Assembly: GCA_028717465.1 (NCBI GenBank)
Contig: JAQUNS010000041.1
Span: forward strand, 1-6,226
Length of the DNA stretch: 6,226 nucleotides
Source of the DNA: Candidatus Omnitrophota bacterium
GTDB taxonomy: Bacteria; Omnitrophota; Gorgyraeia; Kaelpiales; Kaelpiaceae
Direction of reading: 5' to 3'
How positions within the stretch are numbered: position 1 is the stretch's first letter; the number at the start of each line of letters is the position of its first letter. Made by a program: the position numbers and the translations under genes. Positions 1,828 to 6,155 of the stretch are shown here, in pieces. The notes beneath the pieces are model-generated. The model was given only the letters and a program-made list of their open reading frames with translations. It was not told the DNA's origin and did no database searches.

Positions 1828-3087
1828 ATGAAATATAGAAGAGTAAGGGGTACAGAAGATATTTTTGGAACAGAATCTGAGAAATGGCAGCAGATAGATA
1901 ATATTTTCAAGCACATCTGTGGGCTTTACGGCTATAGCCAGATTCAGACTCCTGTTATAGAGCATAGCGAATTATTCAGGCGCAGCATAGGAGAGGCCAC
2001 AGATATAGTCGAAAAAGAGATATTTCAATTTCAGGATAGGTCCGGCAGGGACCTGTCGTTACGTCCGGAGGCCACAGCCTCTATTATCAGGGCCTATCTT
2101 GAGAATAGCCTGTACCAGAGCCCGGGAGTTGTGAAATTATATTATTCCGGGGCTATGTTCAGGGCAGAGAGGCCCCAAAAGGGCAGGAAGAGAGAGTTCC
2201 ATCAGTTTGGCGTAGAAGCTATAGGCTCTTACGGTCCGGAATTGGACTGTGAGACAATAATGTTGGCCAACAGGCTATTGAGAAGCATAGGAATTGAAGG
2301 TTCGATTATTGAATTAAATACTTTAGGTTGCAGGAAAGACAAGAAAAAGATAGCCGGTTATCTTAAAGATATAATAGGTAAAAATATACCGGATCTTTGT
2401 CCAAAGTGTTCGGATAGATTTGAGAGAAATATTTTAAGGGTCTTGGATTGCAAGAACCAGGCTTGCCGGGATGTTCTTGGCAATCTGAATGTAGATATCA
2501 AAAAAGCGGTATGTCCGGACTGCATTAACCATTTTCAGGAACTAAAAAGATGCCTTGATGGAATGGGTTTTCAGTATAGAGAGAATAATTTCCTAGTACG
2601 CGGATTGGACTATTACAGCAGGACTGTTTTTGAAGTAATACATACCGGTTTAGGCGCTCAAAATGCAGTAGGCGCAGGTGGCCGTTATGACAATCTTGTA
2701 GAAGATATGGGGGGACGTCCTGAAGGAGCGGTAGGTTTTGCTTTTGGGCTGGAAAGACTGTCATTTATTGCCGCTAATCTGCCTAGCTGTTCTAGGATGC
2801 TAGATGTTTTTATAGTTTTACAGGATTATAAATTGGTAGGTGAGGCCCTGAAAGAGGCTGACTTTTTAAGAGCTGAGAATATATCTGTGGATATAGATTT
2901 TCAGGGCAGGTCTGTCAAGTCACAGATGCGCCTTGCTAACGATAGAAGAGCCAGGTTTGTTTTAATAATTGGCCAAGAAGAAGCGCAGAAGGGGGTCTGT
3001 TCATTAAAAGATATGTCGACAGGAGAACAAAAGAGCCTCACGAGAAAAGATGTTTTTAAAACGATCAAGGGAGGAGTCAATTGCTAA
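1828..3087 (+). CDS. hisS: Histidyl-tRNA synthetase
   Basis: This class II synthetase charges tRNA-His with histidine and ATP in the cytoplasm. At 419 residues it has the usual bacterial length. The N-terminal YRRVRGTEDIFG (3-14) is typical. Motif 1 lies around TPVIEHSELF (41-50), and LRPEAT (78-83) is the substrate-binding stretch, with Ala where Gly is commonest. Motif 2 is FRAERPQKGRKREFHQFG (111-128), the histidine-specific RGLDYYSRTVFEV runs 258-270, GAGGRYDNL is at 282-290, and motif 3 (GFAFGLERL) is at 303-311. The C-terminal anticodon-binding domain spans about 325-410. The insertion region has CPKC (191-194), C208/C213 and CPDC (229-232), a cysteine-rich form also seen in other bacterial HisRS. 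The upstream frame is closed by TAG at 1798-1800 and ATG 1828 is the first start. It lacks a clear ribosome binding site. The 3' end overlaps aspS by 7 bases. Confidence 0.97.
   Translation: MKYRRVRGTEDIFGTESEKWQQIDNIFKHICGLYGYSQIQTPVIEHSELFRRSIGEATDIVEKEIFQFQDRSGRDLSLRPEATASIIRAYLENSLYQSPGVVKLYYSGAMFRAERPQKGRKREFHQFGVEAIGSYGPELDCETIMLANRLLRSIGIEGSIIELNTLGCRKDKKKIAGYLKDIIGKNIPDLCPKCSDRFERNILRVLDCKNQACRDVLGNLNVDIKKAVCPDCINHFQELKRCLDGMGFQYRENNFLVRGLDYYSRTVFEVIHTGLGAQNAVGAGGRYDNLVEDMGGRPEGAVGFAFGLERLSFIAANLPSCSRMLDVFIVLQDYKLVGEALKEADFLRAENISVDIDFQGRSVKSQMRLANDRRARFVLIIGQEEAQKGVCSLKDMSTGEQKSLTRKDVFKTIKGGVNC
3069..3076 (+). promoter_or_regulatory. Ribosome binding site that supports the TTG start of aspS
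   Basis: GGGAGGAG lies inside the last codons of hisS, with its GGAGG core (3070-3074) ending six bases before TTG 3081. This spacing, plus the normal AspRS N-terminus that follows (MLRTDYCGKL), makes TTG the real start and couples aspS translation to hisS. Confidence 0.8.
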
Positions 3088-4472
3088 GAACTGATTATTG
3101 CGGAAAACTGAATTTAAAAGATGAAAATAGAGCCGTATCTTTGTGCGGATGGGTGTACAGGATAAGGGAGCATGGCAAAGTAGTCTTTCTTGATTTAAGA
3201 GATAGAGAGGGAGTAATTCAAGTTGTCTGTGTGCCAAGTGTTTTAAAAGAAGGTTTTGATACAGTTAAAAGCCTGGTTAAAGAAGATGTTATTTTATTGA
3301 GAGGTATTGTTAATAAAAGACCAAAAGGTACGATAAACGATAAAATACCGACAGGTTTTATAGAGATTCTGGCTTCTGAGATAAAAATTTTAAATAGATG
3401 CTTAAATCTGCCTTTTGAGCTTGATTCTGATACGGAAGTTGCCGAGGAACTGCGTTTAAAATACAGATATCTGGATTTACGGAGAGAAGGACTACAAAAT
3501 AACTTCATTTTTCGCGACAGGGTTACTAAAGAGATGAGATATTTTTTAGATAGCCAGGGTTTTCTCGATGTCGAGACTCCTATATTGACAAAGTCTACTC
3601 CGGAAGGGGCCAGGGATTATCTTGTACCTGCCCGTTTGCGTTCTGGAAATTTCTATGCTTTGCCTCAATCACCCCAGCTCTTTAAGCAGATTCTTATGGT
3701 AGCCGGATTCGACAGGTATTTTCAGATAGCAAGGTGTTTTAGAGACGAGGATTTAAGGGCTGACAGGCAACCGGAATTTACCCAACTTGATTTGGAAATG
3801 AGTTTTATAGACGAAGAAGATATTTTCAATTTAATTGAAGGTTTACTGAGCCAGGTCTTTAAAAAAACATTGAACATTGATTTGAAGACGCCTTTTTTAC
3901 GCCTTAAATATATAGATGCTGTTAAAAGATACGGATCTGATAAGCCTGATTTAAGAAAGGAAAGAAATGAGGAACTCTCTTTTTTATGGATAAATGATTT
4001 TCCTCTTTTCAGGATGGACGAAGAGTCTGGTAAGTGGGATATGGAACACCATCCTTTTACCGCTCCTCATCCTGACGATGTAGGTTTGATAGGTAAAGAT
4101 ATGGCTAAAATAAGAGCCAGGTCCTACGACTTAGTTTTAAACGGAGTAGAGCTTGGCAGCGGCAGTATAAGAATCCACGATAGAAATCTGCAGAAAAAGA
4201 TATTTCAAACCATAGGCATAAGCGACGATGATGCGGAAAGAAAATTCGGTTTTCTTTTAAAGGCTTTGGAGTGCGGGGCACCACCTCATGGCGGTTTTGC
4301 CTTAGGTTTAGATAGAATGGTTGCTTTAATGTTAAATAGGGATAGCATAAGGGATGTTATAGCTTTTCCAAAGACGCAGCGCGGCATCTGCCTTTTGACC
4401 GATGCGCCTTCATCTGTTGATATCAACCAATTATTGGAACTTAAGATCAAGGTTTTAAAAGAACAGGAATGA
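3081..4472 (+). CDS. aspS: Aspartyl-tRNA synthetase, bacterial type, lacking the GAD insertion domain; probably non-discriminating
   Basis: This class II synthetase charges tRNA-Asp, and probably tRNA-Asn as well. It starts at TTG and overlaps hisS by 7 bases. Residues 1-105 form the OB-fold anticodon domain (LCGWVYRIREHG, 21-32). Catalytic motifs are all present: motif 1 around GFLDVETPIL (160-169), QSPQLFKQ (196-203), motif 2 FRDEDLRADRQPEFTQLD (220-237) with R221 and E223, GSGSIRIHD (359-367), and motif 3 GGFALGLDRM (404-413). Bacterial AspRS usually has about 580-600 residues; this has 463. YGSDKPDLR (284-292) is followed after 8 residues by FLWINDFPLF (301-310), so the roughly 130-residue GAD domain between motifs 2 and 3 is absent. 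The frame is intact on both sides, and nothing suggests loss of catalysis. His31 and Gly83 match residues tied to relaxed tRNA specificity in the Pseudomonas enzyme. Confidence 0.96.
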   Translation: MLRTDYCGKLNLKDENRAVSLCGWVYRIREHGKVVFLDLRDREGVIQVVCVPSVLKEGFDTVKSLVKEDVILLRGIVNKRPKGTINDKIPTGFIEILASEIKILNRCLNLPFELDSDTEVAEELRLKYRYLDLRREGLQNNFIFRDRVTKEMRYFLDSQGFLDVETPILTKSTPEGARDYLVPARLRSGNFYALPQSPQLFKQILMVAGFDRYFQIARCFRDEDLRADRQPEFTQLDLEMSFIDEEDIFNLIEGLLSQVFKKTLNIDLKTPFLRLKYIDAVKRYGSDKPDLRKERNEELSFLWINDFPLFRMDEESGKWDMEHHPFTAPHPDDVGLIGKDMAKIRARSYDLVLNGVELGSGSIRIHDRNLQKKIFQTIGISDDDAERKFGFLLKALECGAPPHGGFALGLDRMVALMLNRDSIRDVIAFPKTQRGICLLTDAPSSVDINQLLELKIKVLKEQE

Positions 4473-4575: not shown

Positions 4576-5181
4576 GTGAAGAATATCGGTTTCATTTACC
4601 TGGTTTTTGCATCAGCCTTAATTATTGTTTGCGGATGCGTAAAGACCGGCACTAGAGAGATCATGATGCCTGACCAGGATATTTCCGGCAATCAGGGTTA
4701 TATGAAGGGGGTTCCGGAGATAGGATCTGATAGGCAGATAAGAAAAAAGATAATCTATGAACTGGAGATAGAAGTACCCGATATGTTTAAAAAGGAACCG
4801 GGGTCCGGCTATAAAGATGAGACCATTTGGGGCAATCAAGGTTATCTTTATAAAAGAGACAGCAGTGCAGTGTATATTTATACTTCATCCGAAAAAGTTC
4901 AAGAGAGAGTAAGCCCGGAGCCAGTCAAGCAGCAGCCCGAAGCGGTTTTACCGGATAAAGATGCCCGGCAATGTGAAGTTAACCAATCCGGCTACATAGA
5001 GTATAAGGTCTCTTCTGGCGAGAGCCTCTGGAGTATTTCCAAGAAAATCTACGGAGACGCAGCTAAGTGGAATATAATATATGAGCATAATAGAGACGTG
5101 ATAAAGGACTCCCATAATTTAAATCCGGGCATGATATTGAAGGTTCCGGTTCAGGAAGATAGTTTGAAATATATAAAATGA
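4576..5181 (+). CDS. LysM-domain lipoprotein, peptidoglycan-binding
   Basis: This 201-residue protein begins with a short charged end (MKN), a hydrophobic stretch (4-18) and a lipobox VCGC (18-21). It should therefore be exported, lipidated at Cys21 and anchored to a membrane. A low-complexity middle part contains two copies of a short motif, SGNQGYMKG (37-45) and WGNQGYLYK (85-93), and a Glu/Lys/Pro-rich linker (about 105-137). One LysM domain follows at about 141-191 (YKVSSGESLWSISKKIYGD, then W165 and LNPGMILKVP). LysM binds N-acetylglucosamine glycans, so the protein probably tethers envelope to peptidoglycan; no catalytic domain is visible. Its stop overlaps the phoH start as ATGA. The GNQGY repeats are of unknown role. 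Confidence 0.9.
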   Translation: MKNIGFIYLVFASALIIVCGCVKTGTREIMMPDQDISGNQGYMKGVPEIGSDRQIRKKIIYELEIEVPDMFKKEPGSGYKDETIWGNQGYLYKRDSSAVYIYTSSEKVQERVSPEPVKQQPEAVLPDKDARQCEVNQSGYIEYKVSSGESLWSISKKIYGDAAKWNIIYEHNRDVIKDSHNLNPGMILKVPVQEDSLKYIK

Positions 5182-6155
5182 ACGAAAGGCTTCTAGAGTT
5201 TAAAGATTCCAAAGTTGCCCAGATGATTGCCGGAAGGTTTGACGAAAACGTAAAGCTGATAGAAAAAGAGATGGGTTTGAATGTTATTGCCAGGGGCAAT
5301 ACTTTTATAATCAAAGGCAGCGAAGACAGAGTCAGGCTTACCGAGAAGCTTTTTCAAGAGCTTGCTCTTGTTGTCAATGAAGGGTCTTACTTAAGAAAAC
5401 ATGATGTAATCTATGCTCTAAAGCTGCTAAATAGAAATGCTGAGGCTATACACGAAGTATATTTGGACAGAATAGAGGTTTATTCCAAGAAAAAATACAT
5501 AACCCCTAAAACACACGGCCAGAAACAATACGTTGATGCTATAAGGAGCTATGATATTGTTTTTAACATAGGCCCTGCCGGCACAGGTAAAACCTACCTT
5601 GCTATGGCTATGGCTGTTAACGCCCTTAAAAACCAGAAGGTTTCTCGTATTATCTTAACGCGACCGGCGATTGAGGCGGGCGAAAAACTGGGATATTTGC
5701 CCGGTGATATGCGCGATAAAGTTTCGCCGTATTTAAGGCCTCTTTATGATGCTTTATATGATATGATGGAGCCTAATATGATAGAGGGTTATATCGATGT
5801 CGGAATTATTGAAGTTGCTCCTTTAGCATATATGAGAGGCCGGACTCTTAACGATGCTTTTATTATTTTAGATGAAGCCCAAAATTCTACCCCCGAACAG
5901 ATGAAGATGTTTTTAACCCGGCTGGGTTTTGATTCCAAAGCCGTTATTACTGGAGATATTACTCAGAGCGATTTGCCCAATGGTATAGTGTCCGGGCTGA
6001 CGAAAGCAGTTGAAATTTTAAAAGGGATAGATGATATCAAGTTTGTATATATGATGCGGGACGACGTTGTTAGGCATGAATTGGTACAAAAACTATTAGA
6101 GGCTTATGAATTATATGAAAGCGAGAGAGAGAAAGCGAATATTAAAACTCCGTAA
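5178..6155 (+). CDS. PhoH-like (PhoL/YbeZ-type) ATPase
   Basis: This 325-residue protein has the normal length of the bacterial PhoH-like family (COG1702). An N-terminal KH-like segment covers about 25-65 (LIEKEMGLNVIARGNTFIIKG region). The P-loop ATPase domain starts near ITPKTHGQKQYVDAI (108-122). Walker A is GPAGTGKT (132-139), ILTRPAIEAGEKLGYLPGD (159-177) is a family block, and Walker B is IILDEAQN (229-236). VITGDITQSDLP (256-267) is the sensor-like motif. Members are linked to RNA metabolism and ribosome maturation, often next to ybeY and a 7TM-HD phosphodiesterase gene. The start overlaps the LysM stop by 4 bases (ATGA) and has no ribosome binding site at normal distance, so translation is probably coupled. 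The last 50 bases or so also carry the start of the next frame. Confidence 0.96.
   Translation: MNERLLEFKDSKVAQMIAGRFDENVKLIEKEMGLNVIARGNTFIIKGSEDRVRLTEKLFQELALVVNEGSYLRKHDVIYALKLLNRNAEAIHEVYLDRIEVYSKKKYITPKTHGQKQYVDAIRSYDIVFNIGPAGTGKTYLAMAMAVNALKNQKVSRIILTRPAIEAGEKLGYLPGDMRDKVSPYLRPLYDALYDMMEPNMIEGYIDVGIIEVAPLAYMRGRTLNDAFIILDEAQNSTPEQMKMFLTRLGFDSKAVITGDITQSDLPNGIVSGLTKAVEILKGIDDIKFVYMMRDDVVRHELVQKLLEAYELYESEREKANIKTP

Follow-up and report, generated by a model that had tools for sequence, protein, structure and literature searches.

A GAD insertion separates bacterial aspartyl-tRNA synthetases (AspRS) from archaeal ones according to one study (PMC4206432), and other articles present this domain as a tRNA-positioning element (PMC4237437), tabulate it among the AspRS modules together with their tRNA interactions (PMC10810186) or treat it as a possible editing domain whose absence is tied to the non-discriminating type (PMC3532385), while human mitochondrial AspRS has an insertion domain and the cytosolic enzyme is without one (PMC3824080). 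Across these papers the function of GAD is unsettled between positioning, tRNA interaction and editing. Here we describe the aspS gene of a Candidatus Omnitrophota bacterium, located on a contig of 6,226 bases (JAQUNS010000041.1, analysed at its full length and referred to as the window) from a 1.04 Mb metagenome-assembled genome (MAG) in 206 contigs with a completeness of 76%. The gene encodes a bacterial-type AspRS without GAD; judging from gene comparisons, the domain was very probably excised in an ancestor, and the enzyme would still aspartylate tRNA-Asp and, as a non-discriminating synthetase working with GatCAB, tRNA-Asn. The bacterial-type enzymes of E. coli (1c0a), Thermus (1efw) and Pseudomonas (4wj4) share with the window protein the OB domain, the full class II core, the motif residues and the C-terminal part, with 43-56% identity in structural alignments, and differ from it in carrying the GAD insertion and in a length of about 580-600 instead of 463 residues.

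The open reading frame of aspS (3081..4472, + strand, TTG start) confirmed the 463 residues given in the original prediction. Pfam identified an anticodon-binding OB-fold domain (PF01336, residues 19-104, 3135..3392, + strand) and a tRNA-synt_2 catalytic core (PF00152, residues 122-433), but no GAD (PF02938). The core falls into two parts, the first with motifs 1 and 2 (residues 122-292, 3444..3956, + strand) and the second with motif 3, GGFALGLDRM (residues 301-433, 3981..4379, + strand), and between them lies, as had been predicted for positions 3933-4010, only the eight-residue linker KERNEELS (residues 293-300, 3957..3980, + strand), preceded by GSDKPDLR (residues 285-292, 3933-3956) and followed by FLWINDFPLF (residues 301-310, 3981-4010). 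This is the site of the inserted domain in GAD-bearing relatives. In the alignment to Thermus AspRS1 a first stretch ends at query residue 293 (chain 295) and a second starts at query residue 290 (chain 409), in agreement with the predicted loss of the domain. Between window residues 290 and 301 there are 10 residues in the window and at most 22 in GAD-less rows of the AspRS alignment, against 122-140 in the 172 rows with GAD. The junction is spanned by 339 GAD-less rows; L065, L083 and L147, which do not span it, were excluded from residue counts. The window protein has the conserved class II motif residues; these are among the columns at least 99% identical over the 511 GAD-bearing and GAD-less rows, in a list constructed so that the window has them. 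The two ends of the GAD insertion would meet in the core fold, and after an excision the gap would be closed by a turn of about eight residues.

Enzymes that naturally lack the insertion are found elsewhere. The archaeal and Thermus AspRS2 type (TIGR00458; 1b8a, 1wyd, 1n9w), with a Thermus AspRS2-type structure titled non-discriminating, resembles the window protein in its OB domain, uninterrupted core and absence of GAD, and archaeal-type chains are of similar length (422-438 residues); human cytosolic AspRS (4j15) also has no insertion domain but is of the eukaryotic lineage and 27% identical. While these likenesses would fit an archaeal-type AspRS gained by transfer, the profile scores do not: the window protein scored 699.9 bits with PRK00476 (cut-off 443) and 657 bits with TIGR00459 (cut-off 373.85), both NCBIfam models matching in two stretches of which the first ends at residue 294, and with the archaeal-type TIGR00458 it reached 233 bits, below the cut-off of 368.4. 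Archaeal-type AspRS exceeded this cut-off in none of 39 genomes searched. Thermus AspRS1 is the best solved relative by sequence, the best-matching solved structures, by sequence and by fold, are bacterial AspRS, and the nearest named database matches are Omnitrophota (Kaelpia, Saelkia). In two trees composed of bacterial-type sequences, with archaeal-type AspRS left out, the window protein stands among GAD-bearing and GAD-less Omnitrophota rows with support of 100/99 and 100/96, both starred, and GAD-less members of two further families (coded f8 and f29) nest in GAD-bearing bacterial clades. We therefore give an archaeal origin next to no credence, and the bacterial lineage assigned in the original prediction holds.

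An AspRS match was present in 38 of the 39 genomes, the window's own included (the exception being G031), and was GAD-less in 23 and GAD-bearing in 15 of them; since 23 genomes have the same state, a junction due to chance is excluded. The near-full query was recovered in one piece in 22 of the 23, and G007 gave two fragments, one of them spanning the junction. That the window is one entire contig, 6.2 kb long, among the 206 of its MAG leaves room for a segment missing through assembly or binning, or for aspS being a decayed copy. Against both, the short junction recurs in the same-genus G001 and G002, in the same-family G003 and G004 and in G027 and G224, each listed as a single contig, and the about 390 extra bases by which an assembly deletion would be recognised in related genomes were found in none of these. 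Moreover, the frame is open, the residues shared by at least 99% of the 511 rows are in place, and each of the best 120 of 7,999 database matches, among them the window protein, has a length of 460-483 residues, those with named organisms being Omnitrophota. The other short enzymes with the same junction which the original prediction had proposed to seek thus exist, and its view of a clean excision in a gene free of decay is supported; deletion or decay is refuted for the clade and for the window we regard it as almost inconceivable. A second full-length aspS was likewise not found in the 76%-complete genome, where the only other PF00152 match is a fragment of lysyl-tRNA synthetase.

GatB/GatE-type proteins contain GAD as well, and the domain might have been split off from AspRS to act in trans as a separate protein. 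PF02938 was, however, found inside the AspRS frame of all 15 GAD-bearing genomes and in all 14 control genomes, and at E ≤ 1e-3 it was absent from the 24 others, i.e. all 23 genomes with GAD-less AspRS and G031, which makes action in trans highly improbable. A survey of the phylum, in which classes were assigned by the best E-value of one query, gave an AspRS match at E ≤ 1e-60 in 363 of 384 genomes, and at least 226 of the 363 fell into the GAD-less score class (E ≤ 1e-135), namely 223 of 310 in the window's own class and 3 of the 53 from elsewhere in the phylum. The latter three all belong to family f58 and were each confirmed individually. The figure of 226 is likely a lower bound, because fragments at contig ends fall into the other score class.

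The GAD-less state is not confined to this phylum. A scan of named genomes, from which 80 of 570 loci were kept, found GAD-less bacterial-type AspRS also in records labelled archaeon (L060) and Aminicenantes (L061), with the short linker at the same site as in the window and with losses that the trees place apart from that of the window. Among the best 120 matches to the archaeal query 118 were short, the organism-named ones being Woesearchaeota, Nanoarchaeota or other archaea, and among those to the Aminicenantes query 19 were short and 101 long. In the phylum of L060, 132 of 193 genomes had a match, with 26 one-piece bacterial-type matches (at least 52% identity) and nine weaker one-piece matches (33-40%) that look archaeal-type; in the phylum of L061 a match was present in 191 of 199 genomes and a one-piece match in L061's own genome only. 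Trees built with the insert columns excluded required 7 changes of state in 75 rows, 5 of them forced by starred branches (the partial L147 was dropped from this first tree), and 9 in 73 rows, 7 of them forced by supported branches. Change counts alone give no direction. GAD sits at a single site in every one of the 172 GAD-bearing rows aligned, from several phyla, and because it is implausible that the domain was inserted there again and again, we infer loss rather than gain. Some GAD-bearing relatives are about 80-85% identical to GAD-less ones in alignments covering 63-64% of the query.

If GAD had been lost once and the short allele had later spread across lineages by gene transfer, GAD-less genes should group together. 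In approximately unbiased (AU) tests, with groups picked by trait and family code and partly after the first tree, a single clade of all GAD-less rows was rejected (p = 5.9e-61), as were the joining of the main group with f8 (p = 1e-4), with f29 (p = 7.8e-9) and with the archaeal group (p = 2.4e-4) and, weakly, with f58 (p = 0.028). In addition, residues after the junction agree with the GAD-bearing sister: in f8 FLWITDFPLF follows in the GAD-less L137 and in the GAD-bearing L166 alike. In favour of a single origin, the tests failed to reject the Omnitrophota family f9 joining the main clade (p = 0.42) or one clade of the Aminicenantes-type GAD-less rows (p = 0.22), and G217 and G702 have copies that were either passed between lineages or binned with another one. 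Transfer of the junction segment alone is a possible route. Altogether we consider a single loss with later spread unlikely. From the trees and tests we therefore claim at least five putative separate losses, in the main group, f8, f29, the archaeal group and the Aminicenantes-type group, with f58 as a likely sixth, whereas f9 and a split of the Aminicenantes-type losses are given no extra count because a single origin was not rejected. The f29 loss is represented by one gene cut by the contig end, with the junction inside the gene; its row joins L031 with unstarred support of 97/69 and 98/56, within starred clades that are otherwise GAD-bearing. Beyond the original prediction, the trees thus suggest that the GAD-less state is common in the window's class and arose repeatedly, archaea included. 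Because the family trees suggest at least five separate losses, GAD is likely dispensable in bacterial AspRS, a step that we infer from gene conservation.

G702, of the phylum of L060, has a GAD-less (C4:37596-38951) and a GAD-bearing (C15:21962-22837) bacterial-type AspRS, either a real pair or a case of mis-binning. In family f46, 22 of 23 genomes with a match are in the GAD-less score class, yet G217 has a GAD-bearing AspRS (L150). One tree places it with the f29 line and the other with the f8 line, and it may have replaced the earlier gene by transfer or lie on a mis-binned contig. More generally, many archaeal genomes and proteins of the Woesearchaeota/Nanoarchaeota type have bacterial-type AspRS, with or without GAD.

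With regard to tRNA specificity, asparaginyl-tRNA synthetase (AsnRS) was above its cut-off in none of the 39 genomes, GAD-bearing and GAD-less alike, and GatB, the GatCAB subunit searched, was found in 35 of them, including the same-genus G001 and G002. His31 (codon 3171..3173, + strand) and Gly83 of the window protein match the aligned His and Gly of the non-discriminating Pseudomonas AspRS (Gly82-type, with the Pseudomonas numbering done by hand), at two positions which we take to be sites setting tRNA-Asn recognition. The GAD-less enzyme would aspartylate tRNA-Asp and, being non-discriminating, also tRNA-Asn, and GatCAB would then amidate that Asp. PMC3532385, with its proposal of an editing role and its tie between GAD absence and the non-discriminating type, would favour linking GAD loss to a change from one of the two specificities, discriminating and non-discriminating, to the other. 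Such a link appears very unlikely, as GAD-bearing and GAD-less relatives do not differ in their lack of AsnRS and GAD was also lost in the Aminicenantes-type group, where residue 31 is I or L in the 19 GAD-less rows and M, I or L in the 101 GAD-bearing ones.

Two residues past His31, in the anticodon domain, the window protein has Lys33 (codon 3177..3179, + strand). Lys or Arg occupies this position in 305 of 338 GAD-less rows vs 0 of 172 GAD-bearing rows, these rows being related and the counts not independent. It was found in most of the main Omnitrophota rows, in all 118 database rows of the archaeal group and in 1 of 3 f58 rows. The f8, f29 and Aminicenantes-type losses lack it, as do the GAD-less Omnitrophota rows L011, L017, L019, L021, L023 and L047 and 2 of 119 database rows. 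Such a basic residue may compensate for GAD by adding tRNA affinity in both large GAD-less groups, and we hypothesise that it was a late compensatory gain; on the tree 1-3 of 7 independent pairs changed in the same direction and none in the opposite one, a number of pairs with which significance is unreachable. Columns 270, 283, 285, 293, 299, 301 and 360, compared by lineage, also differ, and no claim is drawn from them. Tentatively, and with less than even confidence, we suggest that GAD could be a removable accessory that lineages from two domains of life have shed on at least five occasions, and that the two largest GAD-less groups converged on basic residue 33, moving the holding of tRNA from the acceptor to the anticodon end. 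If so, GAD would help to position the tRNA and would not serve for editing or as a switch between the discriminating and non-discriminating types.

Several observations weigh against an ancestral excision that left a non-discriminating enzyme acting with GatCAB. No GatB was found in the window's own 76%-complete MAG, and a second AspRS could be in its missing part, although the relatives argue otherwise. In G008, which is GAD-less and 96% complete, neither GatB (E ≤ 1e-3) nor AsnRS above the cut-off was found, so that the tRNA-Asn reading may not hold for every member. In the predicted structure, loops 168-179 and 221-232 have a predicted local distance difference test score (pLDDT) below 50. 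The bootstrap of the 75-row tree had not settled, and support for the main clade was 94/91 in one tree and 65/86 in the other.

Many of these proteins are already named aspartate--tRNA ligase in databases. Among the literature matches listed, from a search with most subscription journals outside its reach, there was no account of a GAD-less bacterial-type AspRS; although the genes themselves are already on record, their loss of the domain is undescribed as far as the literature searches reach. By the GAD-insertion rule, as given in PMC4206432, the AspRS of some 226 of 363 Omnitrophota genomes would be misfiled. The GAD-less enzymes are of interest because the loss is widespread and recurrent, with close GAD-bearing relatives, and these repeated natural losses provide ready-made enzyme pairs for probing GAD function.

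The window contains, in order, the end of a ferredoxin-like open reading frame (2-232, Pfam profile search), an uncharacterised PRK04334-family protein beside it (263-991; NF003323, 301.7 bits, cut-off 271), an HU-type and a cold-shock gene, hisS for histidyl-tRNA synthetase (1828..3087, + strand; Pfam tRNA-synt_His), which overlaps the downstream aspS by 7 bases, aspS itself, a gene for a LysM-domain protein (4576..5181, + strand; PF01476) and a phoH-like gene (5178..6155, + strand; PF02562). The window aspS is 75% identical to a same-genus copy, in an alignment starting at residue 1. A hisS match was present at 28 of 31 GAD-less loci (L033-L062 and L065, with the truncated row L083 excluded) and at all five GAD-bearing Omnitrophota loci (L063, L067, L093, L096 and L108). 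Because hisS matches lie at loci of both GAD-less and GAD-bearing aspS, the GAD-less gene is likely a shorter gene at the orthologous locus. A phoH match lies downstream of aspS at many GAD-less loci and also at the GAD-bearing L067, L093 and L096, and at the L137 locus hisS and aspS are followed by a frame that by eye looks phoH-like, in the order of the window. In L130 (1492-3453) the frame of the GAD-less AspRS extends to about 651 residues with a LysM domain at its end, and aspS there appears to be fused with a LysM gene resembling that downstream of the window aspS.
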